In this document: positions 54,851-64,000 of the stretch, in pieces | Layout: every line of letters starts with the position of its first letter | How positions within the stretch are numbered: position 1 is the first letter of the stretch | Origin: Chlorella sorokiniana | Lineage: Eukaryota; Chlorophyta; Trebouxiophyceae; Chlorellales; Chlorellaceae | Reading direction: 5' to 3' | Assembly: GCA_025917655.1 (NCBI GenBank) | Contig: CP084609.1 | Coordinates: 2,476,920 to 2,540,919, forward strand | Length of the DNA stretch: 64,000 nucleotides | Made by a program: the position numbers and the translations under genes | Notes under the pieces: model-generated | Database searches by the model: none | The model's input: only the letters and a program-made list of their open reading frames with translations | What the model was told of the DNA's origin: nothing

Positions 54851-57800
54851 CCACACCGCATAAGTCGGGCAGTGTTAAGCTCAAGCCTCCAAGCATCGTG
54901 CAAATCTTCCCCAACCAACTCGCGTTTCATCAGCCTTATTTTGCCTCGAGAATGATTGCCCACTTTGTGTGCTTGCCCATTTGTTGTTTGGTTGCTCTAG
55001 CTCTTGCTTATTCTCCCCCATCGTATGAGCATCTTTGCGATGGCGGGGTGTACCTCTTAGACACCCAACATACCCCTCTCCATGATTGACAGTAGCTGAT
55101 GACTTGCAAGCGACCGATGCAAGTCGCGGTGCGTTTGCGGCACACGCAAGTGTTGGAGCGCAACGTGCCCCCAATTTCTTGTGTCATTGTATGAACTCGT
55201 TGCTAGATTCTTGACGTGAGCATTTGCTCATGTGCATTTGCAAGAACCTATCGGTGGGCAAGAATGGGAGAAGAGTGCAATCCATGTGGCTTTGGGAGTT
55301 CTTGAAATGAAGTGATGTCCAGCATCGTCGGCGTTCATGGCTTGCTCTTGTGGTATACAAGGGGAGCATGCTGTCTATGCACAAGAAGCTGCTCCTGGTG
55401 TCATGGAGCACATGTTAGTGTGCATCCCGGTGTTGTTGTCTGTCACGGTGCTGTTATTATCGAGTGTTGGGGCGCTTCTTGTCAAGTAAGGTCCATCCTT
55501 TTGTCACCACTTGGCATCCAACAGTATTCTTCAAGCGACGCAAGCATGAAACTTGTTGAGAAAATCAAAGTGAAGCAGGTTTGCTCTGACTACTTACTTG
55601 GAGATTGTTTGTTGCCCGTCTTGGAACCCCTCCACCTCCCTCCCCACTCAACAAGTTTATTGTTGCCAAGTCCCATAAGCACCAAATTTTCACATACCCC
55701 CGTTCAACCAGACTCACAATTTGACAAAGGACCATTCATGGGGCCCTAAAAATGGAAAAGACGAATCTGAACACCGATTTTTAGGTTTTTAGGAGCACTG
55801 AAAATCACCGAGCGGGCGGCCCCGCAGGGTGGGGGCTGGGGTGTGCAAAGTGGGGTGGGGTGCCACAGGGCAGCAAGGGTGCCAGTGGTGGTGCAGTGTG
55901 TGGGAGGGTGGGTGGAGGAGGTGGGCTGGCTGGGAGGGAAGTGGGGGCGAAGGGGGAGGGCGGGGGCACGTGAGGGATGCACGCGGCGGGGGGGGCATGT
56001 TCAACCCACCTGCTGAGCCTTGTGGAGGGGCCTGGTTCTGCTGGGCCATGGTTTTCACCTGCACATGTGAGGAAGGTTGAGGTGTGTGGGGTGAGTGGGG
56101 CAATGTGCTGCATGGGTGCGACATGCGACGCCGGCGCCCGCAGCGCTCCGGCGGCGAGCGGAGGCGGCGTGCCCTGGCCCCACCAATCATGGTGTATGCA
56201 AGCAGGGCTGCAACCCTCCCTCATCCAGCTCATAGTACAGGTCATGCTGGTGGTTGTTGGCAGGTTTGCCAGGCCAGCGACATACCAGGCATGGCTGGAG
56301 GCCTGCAAGACAAGGCAGTGCAGGGACTGCTGTGCAGCAGCAGACACCCCCAGCCGACCCCCGCACCTCGGCCGGCGGCTGCGGGGATCGACTATGGCAG
56401 CTGTCGTGGGGCGGTTTGAAGGGCGATGCAGGCAACAACGGTCGGTTTCAGGGCTGGGGAAGTCGGTGCCCTCAGCACGGCGTCGCTGCGCTTGCTGGCA
56501 CGCGCATTGTGCTTTGATGAAGGGAGAGGTGTGCCTGGGCGGTGCAGGCGCGTCCCGTGGTGCGGGTGGACTGTGGTTTGGGCGGGGGAGCGAGGGCAAG
56601 GATGGGGGACCTTCAAACGATGCAGATGGACGTAATGGACGACGATTTAGGGTGCACGCTTGTTGGGAGGCGTGGTCCAAAATAGCCCTGGTGGGGTGTG
56701 TACCTGCAGGTACTCCATCGCGCCCCAACCGTTGGAAGTGTGAGCGGCTGCTGGAAAATGTTTGTGTGTGCGTGTGATCTCTATCTGAGGGGTGGCCCGA
56801 TAGCCTGCTGGCCTCCAGCTGCCGCCAGCCCAGCTGTTGTACACCCAGCTGTTGTACCTCTGCTGGAGGAGGCTGGCCGGAGCAGGCCGTCCTTCCTCTC
56901 CTGCAACGCTTCTCCGTATTTTATGCGTCGTCTGCCACCTGCACCCCTCCCGGCTGTCGCCCCCTTCGCCAGGCGATGGCCATTAAGTTGCTATTTGTAC
57001 ATAGCCCTGCGCGCCTTCAGAACTCTAGAGGTGTACGTCAGACGCCTTTCGGCGCAGCGCAGCCGTGCGACCGTGCAGTGCAGAACCGGTCTTGGCACTC
57101 CTCTGCCACTGCTGGCGGCACCGCCTGCGGAGCATGGAACTTGCAGCATTGGTGGTGTGTGTGACATGCTGGGGGTCAGCCACTCATGGATGCCATCACA
57201 ATGGTGTATGGTTGCCAGGATCAGGTTTGCAGCCTGGATGAACAGCCCATGGAGCCTGGGGAGGTTTCCCTCGCCGCGGGCGCGCGTGGTCGTCGGGTGA
57301 ACGCGTTGCGCATGTCGTCAGACTTCAGGCAGGGGTGTTCAGTGGTGGGTAGATGGCCCAGTACCTGGGCATTGTGTTTGGTTGAGCTGTGGTGGTGTTT
57401 GTTGTGAGGATGTCAGCTGTGGCAACAAAGAAGTTTGGTGGGGGAGTTGTTGGGTCAATTTGCTCAGCGGGGGCGTCGCATACGCTTGCCTTCAAGGTGC
57501 AGCTGGCATGTGTTGCAGCTTGGCAAGCTGCAGTGTGTAGGTGTATGCTGGAGCATCACTGGTGACCAGTTTTTGAAGCTGTGCAAGTTGTGGCAGAGTT
57601 TGGACAAGACTGTTGCATGGTGCTCAGTTTTCAGCGGGCACCGAAGGGTTTCATGACTTGATACAAGTCCAGGCATGGTGCCTTTCATTGGCCCACAAGC
57701 TTTCCCAGGCGTGACTCGTCATGTAAAGTGAGGCTGATGAAGTGGTTGCAGTTTATCTCACCAGAAAGATGTGACTGTGAGCTGGAACAATTTTTCAGTG

Positions 57801-58351
57801 AAACTGTGTCACACTGCTGGATGGGCAGAGATGGGTACACCAAGTTCAAGGCAGATTCTAATAGGCTGCACACTTACTGTATGCTAGTACAGTACAGGAA
57901 AGCTTCCTGCAAAGTTACAGCTCGGTATTGCACCATTTGGATGTAGTATGTCATGTCATTGTGTGTAATCAAGTGTGTTTCTGCCTCAGTCTTGACATGC
58001 TCTGATAGCATTGCACCACCTCCAGGAATGGTTTTGCAGGTTTAAAAGCTTGTACAGTCTTGCTTTGGTGTATGCAAGGTGAATCTAAGGTTGTATATCA
58101 TTTGAAACCCATTTGGATGTCATTCCACATGATGGGGTGCTGCCTGCAAAGTGCAGCGGCACGACAGGATGAGCAGGTTCCACAGAACCATGTCCAGGGC
58201 TCATAACAATCGACAGCAAGTTTCCCCTAGCTCAAATAAGTGTACAATGGCTGATCGTAAACTTTCAGCACGTAAATGCACGATTTGATGCCAGCATTGA
58301 TGTGGCTGACCTTGAGTTTCCCTGCTGCCAGCCTGCACGGACATGCCTCCC
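54851..58351. other. Gene-poor subtelomeric stretch, part 1
   Basis: No confident gene. GC is visibly lower in 54850-55780 and 57300-58300 than in the gene-rich part. On the minus strand, 55980-56440 holds a few exon-like pieces: NNHQHDLYYELDEGG near 56240, and VKTMAQQNQAPPQGSA near 56020-56066 bounded by a CAG acceptor and a GTGGGT donor. They may be remnants of a lost or mobile gene. A plus-strand open frame of 72 codons at 57728-57946 has no recognised motif. A short tandem CCAGCTGTTGTACA/CCAGCTGTTGTACC lies near 56829-56858. Confidence 0.4.
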
Positions 58352-58576
58352 CGCCAGAGCGCCGACTTCGCTCGAACAAAGGCCGGAACTAATGTTTTTG
58401 CACATGAAAACATAAGAATCGAGCGAGTCTGACGCGATTGGAGCAGGTCGGTGCCAACATGTTGTCCTGAAGTGCAGGGAAGTGCAAGTTCGCCAGCGCG
58501 CCGATTCCGCTCGAACAAAGGCCGGAAATAAGGTTTTTGCTCATGAAAACATAAGAATCGAGCGAGTCTGACGCGA
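58352..58576 (+). repeat. Spaced direct repeat of an ~85-bp unit
   Basis: The unit at 58352-58436 recurs at 58491-58576 with about ten differences. Shared core segments are CTCGAACAAAGGCCGGAA, CATGAAAACATAAGAATCGA and GCGAGTCTGACGCGA. The copies are in the same orientation, with start points 139 bases apart. I do not see a third copy in the window. Confidence 0.85.
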
Positions 58577-59649
58577 ACGCAGCAACTTGGTTTCACACTT
58601 TTTCAGTGGTCAGCTGGTGGTGCTGGGACAGCAGAACAGCATGATTGTGTTGCAAGGCTGTGGAACTTGATGCTGTAACTTGCAGGCCAGCCCTGGAAGA
58701 CACTTTTGAGCAGCAGGCACGAAAGGAAGCACGTGGATTGGTCCTCTATTCACCACTCTGCACTTGCACCTGCACTTGCACCCCCATCAGGCCAGAGCAC
58801 ACAGCATAAGTTTGCTGCCAGGAGGTGCATTGTTGGCCTGCAAACTGCATGCCCTTGCTGCAGGGGTGGTGCAGCATGCATGCAGCTGAGTGCAGGCACA
58901 ATGTGCATGGATAGCCTATGCAAGAACTGCTTGGTCACTCCTGGCCCCCTGGCCATGCAAGGGGGCCTGGCTTGCACCATGCAGATGTCAGGCTGCATGC
59001 CTCCAATGATGGCACATTGGGTCCCCCTGGCCCCCTGGCAGTCCTACATTCCTTCCAGCAGCAGTACTGCAGTTGTACTGCAGGGGGGCCTGCAGTACAG
59101 GGCAGCACAGCCCCCTGAAATACACCATCACAAGGCCAGCTCCCACCAGAAAAAGGTGGTCAGAACCATGGCCAGCCGAGTGGCAGCACCATGCACGCAT
59201 GCAATGTGACAATCCTACCTGATCACATTTTGGATACCTGCCCTCCCCTCAAACACCGTAGCACGGGGCAAGGTGCTTGGGACCCACCACACACAATGCT
59301 CCCCTGAACTCATGAAAACAGCACCCCACAACACACAACACACACACCCACACCCACAACACCACAAGAAACCTCCACACAAAAGCATCCTGCATTCCAG
59401 CACACACCGACGCATGCCCCGCCCCCGACCGTCGCCACCAACCACCCAACCACCTCCCCTGAAAAGTGCAAACTCCTTGGAAACGTGCCATGCTTGCAAT
59501 GTTTACACTCACAAACGATCAGCAACACTCACAGACACTCAACAAAGCACCCCAGCACCACACAGCTCTCGCGCGCGCAGCGCGCGCTCACGCCCGCACC
59601 GCCGCTCAGCCACATGCTCCACCTCAGCCTCAAAGCTGCACACCCATCT
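58577..59649. other. Gene-poor subtelomeric stretch, part 2
   Basis: Contains CA-rich low-complexity sequence (about 59320-59400) and a Met/Cys-biased open frame on the plus strand (58706-59209) without recognised motifs. No supported gene. Confidence 0.4.
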
Positions 59650-60702
59650 TCATGGAGCCATCCAGCTGCTGGGGGTGTTCCTCCCATACTTGTGATCCCT
59701 GGGCTCCACTCCCCTGCACTTCTTCTTCCAAACCCTCTGGCTGGCATTGAACGCATCGTCCGCCACCGCCACGTGCCACGGAGCCGCGCACGACTTCACA
59801 AAGCACTCACCAAGGTGGGCCACAATGTACCTCTCCTTCCCACCAGGCCCTGAGCTCCTTGCATCCACATCAAAGGGAAACTGGGACACATCTGCAGGGG
59901 CACCAGGCCTCTGCTCACACACTGCCGCCGCCGCAGCCCCCCCGCCGCCGCTGCCGCCGCCACAAAACACGACACTCACCGGTGTACCCATTCTTCATGT
60001 ACGCCACCAAAACGTGCAGGCCGACGTAAACACGAAACTCCGACTCCGTCTGCGACACGCCAACCGCCTCAGAAAGCCCAAACCGCCTGAGTACTGCTCG
60101 CACGTACCGCTCACCTCCCCTCTGGGAGGGCCCCAAGTGCCGTTTCGCTTCTCCGTCAACTCCAGGTCGCCGTAAAGGTCGAACTCCAAGTACGCGTACC
60201 CGCCAGGATCGCGACTCAGCACCACCCGACGGTCAGGCGGGCGGGCGGCGCCGCCAGGCAGCGCACGCACCTCTGCAAAGTTCTCAGCAAGCCTCCTCTT
60301 GCAGGCTGGCAGCACACACCCAGTGAAGATGTCCTCCTCCTTCTTGCAGTGCATGCTGTCCCTCACCAGCTTGGGCCACTGCAGCCAGCTGTCCTCCGCC
60401 GACGCCGCCGACAGCGCCACGCCGTGCCCGTCCTCGTCGCCCAACAAGGTGAAGGACTCCAGCTGCTTGGAGCCCTTGAAGCAGGGGTGTAGCACATGCT
60501 TCACCACATCCTCCCACTCAGTTCTGCTGACCCTCACAACTGACAGCTGCCTGCTGCCACCCTCCAGCACTGTGCACCTCAGCAAGCTGCCCTTCGATGC
60601 CTTCTTCGAAAAGCAGCGGAGCAGCAGCTTCCTCTGATACCTCTGCCTGCCTGCCCCCCCCTCCTGGCTGCCTTCCCTTTCTGCCTCCTGGTCACCATGC
60701 CT
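59650..60702 (-). CDS. Unknown protein next to the tyrosine-recombinase gene (possibly the 3' part of the same gene)
   Basis: No family recognised. The first exon starts at 60702 after a strong pyrimidine-rich CAG acceptor, so an upstream exon is expected. It reads RQRYQRKLLLRCFSKKASKG, LLRCTVLEGGSRQLSVVRVS, RTEWEDVVKHVLHPCFKGSK, FTLLGDEDGHGVALSAASAE, DSWLQWPKLVRDSMHCKKEE, VVLSRDPGGYAYLEFDLYGD and LELTEKRNGTWGPPRGE. After a frame change near 60115 it continues YVRAVLRRFGLSEAVGVSQT then FRVYVGLHVLVAYMKNGYTG, ending at a GTGAGT donor near 59979. The next exons read DVSQFPFDVDARSSGPGGKE, RYIVAHLG, then FVKSCAAPWHVAVADDAFNA and a stop at 59650. The consistent acidic/aromatic composition and clean splice sites argue that it is coding. 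Because it lies immediately behind the recombinase on the same strand, it may be an accessory protein or C-terminal extension of that element. Confidence 0.5.
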
Positions 60703-63568
60703 CTGCAGTGCATGCACAGGGGTTGGGGTCACATGGGAGGGTGAGCACATGGTGAGAGGGAGAGCAAATAATGAAGCTAAGGTAGGGGGGCGAAGGGAGC
60801 CTGCGCAACGGCGCAGGCACAGAATGCCTGACTAAAAGCCTGACTAAAAGAAAATAAGTGCTAGGAAGAAGGAGCTTGGGGCTCATGCTCTGTGCAGAAT
60901 CATAGTCTTCAGAAGAGGAGGAGCAAAGGTCAATCTCAATGTCCCAGCCCTCCTCCTCCTCCGCCGCCGGCCACTCCGGCTCCGCCTTCACCGCCACCAA
61001 GCCCTGCTGCTGCTGCTGCAGCTGGGCAAGCTGCTGCACAACTTGGGACTGGAACTGCTGCTGCTGCTGGTGCATCTCCACAAGCTGCTGCCTCAGCTCT
61101 GCTGGCTTGGGCTCCAGGGCTGGCACCAGGGGAAGCGCCGCAGGCGCCGCACCCGCCAGCTCCGCCAGCGGGTCCACCGCAGCCGTGCCAGCCTGCTGCA
61201 AGGCCACATGCCTGTAGTGCTCCATGTGCAGCTGGGACACCCTCATCTGCTCCAGCTTGAAGGTGGGGAAGTAGGTGGCCATCCACTGGTACAAGGAGTT
61301 GCCCATCCCCCACGCCGCCGACTCGTTGTCCGGCCCAGCGCCGCCGCGTGACATGCGGTCAGTGATGAACACATGCCTCCCAAACTTGGGGCACAGCCTG
61401 ACCCACTTCTGCAATGGGGGAGCAGGCAGGGTGGGGTGGTCAGGCTTGGGCATGCAAGTGGATGCTTGCAAGGGAGGGGGCTGGCCGGCGCTGCGCCGGT
61501 ACCGCTTCCGTACCGCAGCAGCGCACCCACCCACCTTGAAGATCCTGGTGACTGAGGAGGAGCTCATGGGGACACCACCATCCAAGGTGCAGAACGCTGT
61601 CTTGGTGCCCTGCACACACACCAAGGGGGCTGGCTCAGAAAAGCACCACGAGCGCGGCACCGCACACGCCCCCCAAGCCCGCCCCGCACCTCAGCGGCGA
61701 TCACGCCGTAGCAGTGGCTGAACCACACATCCATCCAGATGAGCATGGAGGGGGAAGGGGTAGGTGATGGGGGCCCTGTCCCTCTGGCTGCTGTGGTCAG
61801 AGGTCTTGTGGTGGGGGATGAAGAGGGAGTAGCCGCCACCAGGCGTGCGCAGAATGCCGTTGCCGCGGCAGCGCGACACGCGGCAGCTGCCCATGGGGCA
61901 GCTCTCAGGCCAATGGTCAGGGTGGCACAGGGAGGTGAACCACTCTGGCCTCCAGGGTGTCAGATGGGCCATCCAGCAGCAGAGCATGAGGCCCTTGCCC
62001 CAGGCCTCGGCCGCGGCGCGCACAGCGGGGTGGCCGGCATGCGACTCGAACAGGCGCAGCTCTGGGAACTTGAAGGAGGTGGAGGTGACAGTGCTGGTGG
62101 CAGGGGAGCCCCCAATTGCATCTGGAAGGGCCTGCAAGGGAGGGGGAGGGGCAGGCAGCCACATGGGTGGGAGGGGGAGGCACAGCGTACAGCCCACGTA
62201 CATCGCCCGTACCGCCACCAGTACAGCAGCCAGAGCAAGGTGCAGAAGGCTGGCACCCACCTTCATGAGCTCCACAGCCTTCTTCTTCTCCTCCTCAATG
62301 AAAGCAATGAGCTCAGGGGCATCCTTCCACTTGGCCCCCTCCATCAGGGCCTTGTAGTCGAAGGGCACGTGGCGGCAGATTTTGCGCAGCTGGTGCTTGA
62401 GGCTGGCAAGCTGGCTCTCCTGCTCCTTGAACTGCCTCTGCTTGGCTGCACCATAGGGCTGGGGGCTGAGGCCTTGAGGAAGTGCAGCAGCCTGAGGACA
62501 GAGTGGCAGGTCTTGGCCATGTAGTCGCCGCCGCGCCGCCTCGCCATCAGCACCGAGAGGTAGCGCAGGAAGGACACAAAGTTGTCCCTCAGCACAGCCA
62601 GGGTCAGCCTCTCATTCTCCTGCCTGCAGTGCTTCATGTAGAAGCCATAGTAGGCATTCAGATGGTACAGGGTGTTCTTCCATGTCCCGCAGCAGGCAGC
62701 AGGCAGGGGGGGTGGGGCCGCGTCGGCAGCCGGCGACAGGGCGACAGCTGGGCAGGCAGTTGGGGCAGTTCAAAAGCATTTCATGCATGCCAGGACACCA
62801 GCAGCCCCCTCCCTCCCCCTGCTCACTTCTGGTTGCCACTCTGCTCAATGCCAGGGGCTCTGTCCAGCCTCACATCATCATGCAAGAACTCCTTGAAGGC
62901 CCTGTACTGGGGGCCAGCCTCTTGCACGTCCGAGGCGCCAGCGCGCCGCCAGCCCGAACCGCGACGCCGCAAGCTCCTCAGGGGTGAGCCCATGGGGGCA
63001 GCCTCACCAGCCTCTCCCCTGCCTGAAATACTCAAGGAATGTGGGGGTGGGGGGCATACACACTCAGGGCAGTGCCTCTTGGCACAAGAGAGCAAGGTCA
63101 CATGGTGGTCGCGCGGCGGCGCCGGGAAGCAGGCGGCGCACTCACCATGCTGTGTTCATCCTCAGGATTCTCCAGCTCAGGGGGTGGAGGGGGGGTGGGG
63201 GTGGGAGCTCCTCCAGGCCCAGCAGCTGGGCAAAGGAAGCATCCACTGGGGGCTGAGCAAGGAGAGGGAGGCGAGCGCCGCGCGCACGGCCGCCGCGCGG
63301 GAGCCAAGCTGGCCTTGCTGCTGTTGGCTGGATAATCAGCATGATCTATGAGCAGATCAATCTCTGTGGGAGAGGCTCCCATCCAGGCAATGCCCTGGGC
63401 CACCCTTTGCAGTGCACCATTGAAACGCGTGCGACCGACGGGGCGGGCGCCGCCGGCGCGCAAGGCGGCACCGGTGCACACCCAGCCAGTTGGCCCCATC
63501 AAAGCTGAAAACCAGCAGCTGGACTGTGGTTTCAGGGCTGATGGTGAAGGAATGGAGAAAGTGTGCAT
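60692..63568 (-). CDS. Tyrosine-recombinase-like protein of a putative mobile element, 5' end cut off by the telomere
   Basis: The first visible exon begins at 63568 after a textbook TTTCTCTCTCTGGGCTGCAG acceptor (AHFLHSFTISPETTVQLLVF). Further exons: RFNGALQRVAQGIAWMGASP, QPPVDASFAQLLGLEEL, YRAFKEFLHDDVRLDRAPGI and TWKNTLYHLNAYYGFYMKHC. A helical core-binding-like part follows: LRDNFVSFLRYLSVLMARRR, YMAKTCHSVLRLLHFLKASA, HVPFDYKALMEGAKWKD. The catalytic part has GLMLCCWMAHLTPWRPEWFT (box I Arg, about 61938-61995), GYSLFIPHHKTSDHSS (Lys hairpin, about 61795-61830), FGRHVFITDRMSRGGAGPDN (R-H-x-F-x-T type box II, about 61325-61385) and WGMGNSLYQWMATYFP (MGxS plus candidate Tyr, about 61270-61312). 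A Gln-rich coiled coil (QQQQQFQSQVVQQLAQLQQQ) and an acidic Ser-rich tail (DLCSSSSEDYDSAQSM) follow; stop at 60692. The box order matches Crypton/DIRS-like tyrosine recombinases. Catalytic assignments are by eye, and three C-run frame breaks were bridged. Confidence 0.55.
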
Positions 63569-63620
63569 CTGCAGCCCAGAGAGAGAAAGTTTGGAGTGAC
63601 CTAAACATGCTTTACGCGGG

Positions 63621-64000
63621 GTTTAAGGGTTTAGGTTTTTAGGGTTTAGGTTTTAGTTTTAGGGTTTATGGTTTATGGTTTAGGGTGTAGGGTGTAGGGT
63701 GTAGGGTGTAGGGTTTTAGGGTTTAGGGTTTAGGGTTTAGGGTTTAGGGTTTAGGGTTTAGGGTTTAGGGTTTAGGTTTTAGGGTTTAGGGTTTAGGGTT
63801 TAGGGTTTAGGGTTTAGGGTTTAGGGTTTAGGGTTTAGGGTTTAGGGTTTAGGGTTTAGGGTTTAGGGTTTAGGGTTTAGGGTTTAGGGTTTAGGGTTTA
63901 GGGTTTAGGGTTTAGGGTTTAGGGTTTAGGGTTTAGGGTTTAGGGTTTAGGGTTTAGGGTTTAGGGTTTAGGGTTTAGGGTTTAGGGTTTAGGGTTTAGG
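63621..64000 (+). repeat. Telomere, TTTAGGG repeats with degenerate inner part
   Basis: Plant/Chlorella-type telomere with the G-rich strand reading toward the right end, so base 64000 faces the chromosome tip. The inner ~90 bases (63621-63712) are variants: TTTTTAGGG, TTTATGG and four TGTAGGG units. Mostly canonical heptamers follow, with one TTTAGG-TTTTAGGG slip near 63774-63783. From about 63784 the array is perfect. Confidence 0.98.

Follow-up and report, generated by a model that had tools for sequence, protein, structure and literature searches.

Yeast Y' elements are terminal repeats that lie between telomere tracts, are homogenised by exchange and code for a helicase, while HeT-A and MoTeR2 are retroelement units copied by a reverse transcriptase (RT) that is supplied in trans. 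The fungal telomeric non-long-terminal-repeat retrotransposons MoTeR and FoTeR are described as encoding an RT and a restriction-like endonuclease, and as occurring at chromosome ends only, with the 5' end directed to the terminus and with many truncated copies (PMC12857005). Rotifer terminons, which are endonuclease-deficient Penelope elements, are described as RT-encoding and as carrying a hammerhead motif (PMC6431247). Here we describe an element of similar layout in the green alga Chlorella sorokiniana, located in a stretch of 64,000 nucleotides (hereafter the window) that forms the right end of contig CP084609.1 (hereafter C8; assembly GCA_025917655.1, contig positions 2,476,920 to 2,540,919). 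Positions 55794 to 63617 of the window are best read as a mobile element of unknown family that resides in telomeres, here present at full length. We consider this reading probable as a whole; confidence is high for the structure of the element and low for the way in which it entered. A telomere-embedded element of such kind in algae was not found in the titles and abstract openings of the open-licence literature searched.

As far as MoTeR and FoTeR are described, the algal element resembles them in being found at ends only, in its distal 5' side, in carrying telomere repeats, or motifs like them, at either junction and in its truncated copies, but their RT and restriction-like endonuclease were not found in it and their hosts are fungi. 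With the terminons, again as described, it shares a 3' end that rests on telomere repeats, 5' truncation of most copies by short telomere repeats and a folded motif near the 3' end, whereas neither their RT nor their hammerhead motif was found. Like Y' it is a terminal repeat between telomere tracts that takes part in exchange between ends, but no helicase match was obtained in the scanned frames. The MoTeR and FoTeR elements and the terminons are described as RT-encoding; an algal element with the same layout and no detectable RT makes the route of telomere entry testable. Truncated and full copies, present side by side, also show trimming, re-capping and exchange of chromosome ends.

A telomere-embedded element and its copies

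The comparison concerns a single genome of 38.8 Mb in 15 contigs, 13 large ones and two of 77 and 118 kb; copies are named by contig. The G+C content amounts to 53-71% per 2-kb window. The telomere repeat is TTTAGGG, the type ancestral to green algae according to PMC8226300; like the G+C content, it points to a green alga. The features that delimit the element are:

55794 to 63617, minus strand: whole telomere-embedded element, 7,824 bp, gene 5' end distal (inter-copy homology; unique end-mers)
55778 to 55793, plus strand: short telomere tract TTTTTAGGTTTTTAGG, degenerate, flanking the element proximally (telomere-word coverage 0.67 over 24 nt)
63618 to 64000, plus strand: terminal telomere (TTTAGGG)n, first ~90 bp degenerate (sequence; end of contig C8)

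Homology among the five long copies (C8, C4, C9, C11 and C3) begins at 55794, and the copies of subfamily A, as defined below, end at 63617, by which the extent of 60692-63621 originally assigned to the feature proves too small. The element is present at seven chromosome ends, C3, C4, C5, C8, C9, C10 and C11, in all cases the right end of the contig and in all cases with the gene 5' end toward the terminus. Two types of proximal end are distinguished. A 26-mer of the A-type end, AGCACTGAAAATCACC..., is found exactly at C4, C5, C8 and C9, and a 28-mer of the B-type end, TATTATGTAGTAAGC..., exactly at C3, C10 and C11; at up to 3 mismatches neither occurs elsewhere in the genome, hence none lies inside a chromosome. 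Between A and B the outermost 18-20 nt differ at the same place, directly beside well-conserved sequence. Searching the 13 left ends over their first 10 kb gave no match, nor did further copies emerge from the whole-genome similarity searches, which score best candidates only; of the right ends that lack a copy C6, C7, C12 and C13 were inspected over the last 2 kb.

The restriction to right ends would have a probability of 0.0026 if ends were equal, as computed post hoc, and contig orientation is expected to be arbitrary. An internal stretch of C12 (C12:338901-339800) is 68% alike to element positions 44-236 and has no telomere repeats in its surroundings. Judged by this likeness, the proximal end of the element may share its origin with a host locus on C12.

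Both junctions carry telomere repeats. At C8 the telomere-word coverage of 0.67 in the 24 nt before the boundary is reached by none of 1900 background windows; in six of the seven copies these 24 nt consist for 38-71% of telomere words, a level that no background window reaches (575-1900 each). The tracts before the proximal ends differ between copies. Distally, telomere repeats follow in all six copies that can be judged, the contig of C3 ending inside its copy. These repeats on both sides, together with the two fixed ends, the single orientation and the finding of copies at chromosome ends only, are what the telomere-resident reading is based on. They also support the alternative that had been offered in the original prediction, namely that the element is tied to telomeres.

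An inverted border motif, TTTAGGTTTTC...GAAAACCTAAA, is located directly at the telomere of nine element-free ends (C1L, C4L, C7L, C9L, C12L, C13L, C2R, C12R and C13R, with L and R for left and right). The motif was searched by one regular expression that had been written after inspection of the ends, with 11 matches versus none across 209,361 bases of reversed control sequence. Besides the nine ends, the matches comprise C9R and C11R, where the motif lies immediately proximal of the element; by eye, a variant lies proximal to the element at C10 and another at the telomere of C6. At C9, C10 and C11, given this position of the motif, the element therefore looks as if it sits just beyond the apparent base of the normal telomere.

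C2L, C5L, C6L, C8L, C10L, C11L and C1R lack the border motif, and their telomere directly adjoins other sequence, which gives them the look of broken and healed ends. C3L has no match to the pattern and a partial one by eye.

Distal junction and first exon

The original prediction described a minus-strand, multi-exon gene that reaches the telomere, which is confirmed by the sequence, as is the start of the telomere repeat about 50 bases past 63568, at ~63618. On the plus strand the junction reads ...CCTAAACATGCTTTACGC, followed by GGGGTTTAAGGGTTTAGG... The right ends of C4 and C9 are identical to that of C8 through TTTACGC and then continue into degenerate telomere repeats of their own that differ. 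When up to 3 mismatches are allowed, the distal 23-mer has three genomic sites, one each at C4, C8 and C9; all have 0 mismatches and are directly followed by telomere repeat, and at this tolerance it was nowhere found with continuing non-telomeric sequence. Thus, all three copies that reach the distal end share the nucleotide at which they stop. Over the distal 130 bp there are no changes between C8 and C9 and there is one between C8 and C4.

Because C4, C8 and C9 share one junction, 63617 is not a point at which the C8 gene alone was broken. A break of this chromosome inside an intron of the element, followed by healing, which had been the suggested origin of the end, is hence rejected. The search for further copies and their telomere junctions that had been proposed alongside returned copies at seven ends and, the junction being common, no break private to C8. 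The best explanation, at the strength given to the reading as a whole, is that the C8 junction is the element's own end rather than a wound and that the C8 copy is untrimmed. Breakage with subsequent healing does describe the copies at C5, C10 and C11, which show three different stops, each capped by telomere.

The intron had been postulated on account of a splice acceptor at 63568. The acceptor-like stretch CTTTCTCTCTCTGGGCTGCAG is present and ends at 63569, but lost upstream exons are not obligatory, and the candidate was rejected as an obligatory acceptor. An ATG suffices that lies 40 nt upstream of it:

63606 to 63608, minus strand: ATG opening exon 1, 9 nt inside the element end (sequence; frame reading)

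An in-frame TAA at 63614-63612 precedes this ATG, such that the minus strand reads TAA AGC ATG inside the element end. The frame (MFRSLQTFSLWAADAHFLHSF...) runs on across the supposed acceptor and joins one of two open frames there. Since it crosses the acceptor after an in-frame stop, an upstream exon is not required, and by this frame reading exon 1 can have its start just 9 nt within the element.

Mosaic and truncated copies

All known truncations are on the distal side. The copy at C5 stops after ~3.36 kb and that at C10 after ~0.2 kb, while that at C11 lacks the last ~200 bp; all three are directly capped by telomere repeat.

Divergence is strongly uneven along the element. Measured in windows of 300 columns, pairs of copies differ by 0-32%, and C8 and C11 alone by 2% to 32%. 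Over 60952-60065 C3 and C11 hardly differ (0-0.3%), whereas over 62726-61247 C3 departs from C11 by 11-21% and follows C9 (0-1.8%), which places a switch point near 60950. The proximal 119 bp have one change between C8 and C9 and none between C8 and C4, while neighbouring windows of C8 and C9 differ by 6-26%. The copies are mosaics, as would be the case under Y'-like exchange, and judged by these comparisons chromosome ends therefore exchange sequence.

Coding capacity

The gene that reaches the telomere is referred to as gene 1.

60875 to 63608, minus strand: gene 1 (hand model from open frames, GT-AG borders with one GC-AG, and A/B comparison)
~63482-63608, 63314-63363, 63146-63252, 62827-63022, 62261-62747, 61690-62131, 61535-61609 and 60875-61408, minus strand: exons of gene 1 (hand model)

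Its frame is broken in the C8 copy, and positions 60875-60877 read AAG in C8 versus TAG in C4 and C9. Constraint was examined on pieces that had been picked after a preliminary look, with the tail of exon 8 left out. The later exon pieces (62461-61190) show 31.7 synonymous changes between C8 and C11 versus 22.5 in neutral simulation (32 of 2000 runs), and 33.7 versus 24.0 between C9 and C11 (22 of 2000 runs). No synonymous excess is seen in the two shifted frames of these pieces (392 and 1919 of 2000) and no constraint in the early exon piece E5a (1586 of 2000). This suggests modest constraint on the later exons.

Gene 1 had been labelled a tyrosine recombinase, for which we find no support. 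Searches of Pfam, NCBIfam and PDB sequences returned no recombinase: at E-values up to 10 the joined gene of C8 obtains weak, unrelated Pfam models (best E 0.017) and that of C11 none, while NCBIfam and PDB sequences have 0 matches each. In PHROGs a single family, its function unknown, appears at E 0.18. The Phage_integrase profile PF00589 has 0 matches genome-wide at E-values up to 1, and responds in 14 of 14 control genomes, all of which are prokaryotic; no catalytic-domain profile of a tyrosine recombinase of the Crypton or DIRS type matches gene 1. The catalytic residues of tyrosine recombinases come in the order Arg, Lys, His-x-x-Arg, Tyr. By eye, a candidate Arg (LTPWRPEW) and a candidate Lys (HHKTS) are conserved between A and B, and H-x-x-R followed by Tyr was not seen in exon 8. 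At most, a likeness seen by eye around a single Arg and a single Lys speaks for the label. A single-sequence structure model of exon 6 is uninformative (mean predicted local distance difference test score, pLDDT, 35). Scans with exon 6 gave 13 pattern matches in viral contigs and 183 in genome contigs, none of them a relative, and a scan of the viral contigs with exon 8 gave none. A gene-1-like match at C6 2827268 (E 0.15) has by eye no continuing open frame and was treated as chance.

A second gene lies downstream.

59654 to 60698, minus strand: gene 2, for a protein with a zinc-loop-like stretch, in three exons, ~60271-60698, 59981-60115 and 59654-59892 (hand model from open frames and A/B comparison; splice borders guessed)

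Gene 2 of C11 matches positions 61-106 of PF05551, the zinc loop of His-Me homing endonucleases, with E 1e-4 and 23 bits, the curated cut-off being 27 bits. The genes of the A copies reach 13-15 bits (E 0.03-0.09). A six-frame search of the genome at E-values up to 1 yields two matches, gene 2 of the B copies C3 and C11 (E 0.003, 22.4-22.6 bits), and nothing genome-wide above the curated cut-off that would class gene 2 as a homing endonuclease. Because of the E-value at C11, and even though its score is below the cut-off, gene 2 is likely a distant relative of the His-Me homing endonucleases by profile similarity; it resembles them in the zinc-loop stretch and differs in that the rest of the domain is unmatched. 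A search of PDB sequences gave no useful match, and a scan of viral contigs with exon 3 gave 10 pattern matches and no relative.

Pfam scans covered 8 + 9 of the 90 frames of at least 60 aa in the element as well as the joined genes, and identified neither an RT nor a helicase in the scanned frames. A six-frame genome search with RVT_1 (E-value up to 0.001) leaves the element unmatched and yields at least 57 matches in the genome, each of them separated from the nearest chromosome end by more than 330 kb. Many of these are clustered, for instance at C8 754-800 kb, C7 764-806 kb, C9 776-813 kb and C3 2051-2116 kb, with further clusters at C2 3074-3100 kb and C6 732-771 kb. Clustering of RT matches at one place per chromosome, as on several chromosomes here, could fit retroelement-rich centromeres.

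Mode of entry and alternative explanations

Under the favoured reading the element would have inserted at the base of telomere tracts already present, close to where the native chromosome gives way to telomere, and would subsequently have spread and been homogenised as ends copied or exchanged sequence. When a terminus is lost, the element would be trimmed from the distal side, where the gene has its 5' end, after which telomere repeats would re-cap the stump. An entry protein of the element's own might be encoded by gene 1 or by gene 2 with its zinc-loop stretch, the alternative being host recombination. For the first placement we lean towards targeted entry followed by recombination rather than host recombination alone. 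A specific version is that of a telomere-homing DNA element, of which the own His-Me-type nuclease cuts the telomere base and which is then copied in without RT; we regard it as quite improbable, and if true it would represent a class of telomere parasite not met in the open-licence literature searched.

Several observations weigh against a mobile element with an end of its own at 63617. No transposition enzyme was identified in the element by the searches made, and under the hand model the frame is broken in all five copies that bear gene 1, mostly at runs of C or G, where the breaks could be sequencing errors. Gene 2 shows no constraint between the subfamilies (1590 of 2000 simulation runs). 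The C3 copy has no proximal telomere repeat (0% coverage) and the distal end of subfamily B is not represented in the one genome examined. The scarce variation over the distal 130 bp is unremarkable, the distal half of the element differing between C8 and C9 by 0.7-4.4% per window anyway, and the run TTTAGGTTTTTAGGG near the junction is common to the distal telomere tracts of C8 and C4, from which a common descent of these two ends is possible. Finally, the promoter has no room between the ATG at 63608 and the telomere.

The missing promoter room also fits one old break, in which a longer ancestral element lost its distal part, received a telomere at 63618 and was afterwards passed on by copying to C4, C8 and C9, as do the good acceptor-like stretch inside the first open frame, 40 nt past the ATG, and the existence at C5, C10 and C11 of truncated, telomere-capped copies. 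That the element end contains an in-frame ATG after a stop, and that the distal 23-mer continues no further anywhere in the genome, makes such a break unlikely in our judgement. An artefact at the contig end is suggested by the right ends of C3 and C7, which have no telomere and show the assembly to be incomplete at some ends; three contigs with the same junction and differing telomere repeats behind it leave this extremely improbable, and it was rejected.

A passive subtelomeric repeat of the Y' kind, without an integration function of its own and propagated through break-induced copying from one short telomere tract to another, would account for the strong mosaicism between ends, for the terminal position of all copies found, for the short telomere tract at the base, for the lack of an intact enzyme gene and for the fact that the searches made here yielded no match to a transposase, a recombinase or an RT. 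A donor tract should however travel along with the repeat, whereas the proximal telomere tracts, compared by eye, differ more than the elements do, although such tracts can also change fast by slippage. The difference in the outermost nucleotides between A and B, at one place and next to conserved sequence, speaks against it as well, and we take this explanation to be unlikely while still a substantial possibility. The geometry on the other hand, with the gene 3' end proximal and fixed and the 5' end distal and variably truncated, is that of a telomeric retroelement-like unit in the manner of HeT-A or MoTeR2, attached by its 3' end and served by an RT in trans, and it agrees with that described for FoTeRs (PMC12857005) and terminons (PMC6431247). 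Such a unit is improbable, given that RVT_1 has no match in the element and only matches distant from the ends elsewhere, that introns are retained and that neither a hammerhead nor any other Rfam match is present.

Further sequence features

Three smaller features complete the description of the element.

55812 to 55825, minus strand: GC hairpin, 18 nt inside the proximal end, in both subfamilies (RNA fold)
58334 to 58452, no strand assigned: 119-nt direct repeat, copy 1 (sequence comparison)
58473 to 58591, no strand assigned: 119-nt direct repeat, copy 2, 83% to copy 1 (sequence comparison)

Rfam has no match, the hammerhead included, in either the whole window or the proximal end. The hairpin fold has a z of -1.55 for the A type, which is unremarkable with 14 of 200 shuffles being as good, and of -3.05 for the B type of C10 (1 of 200). 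The direct repeats are 139 bp apart from start to start, and a pair is also found in the copies of C4, C9, C11 and C3.

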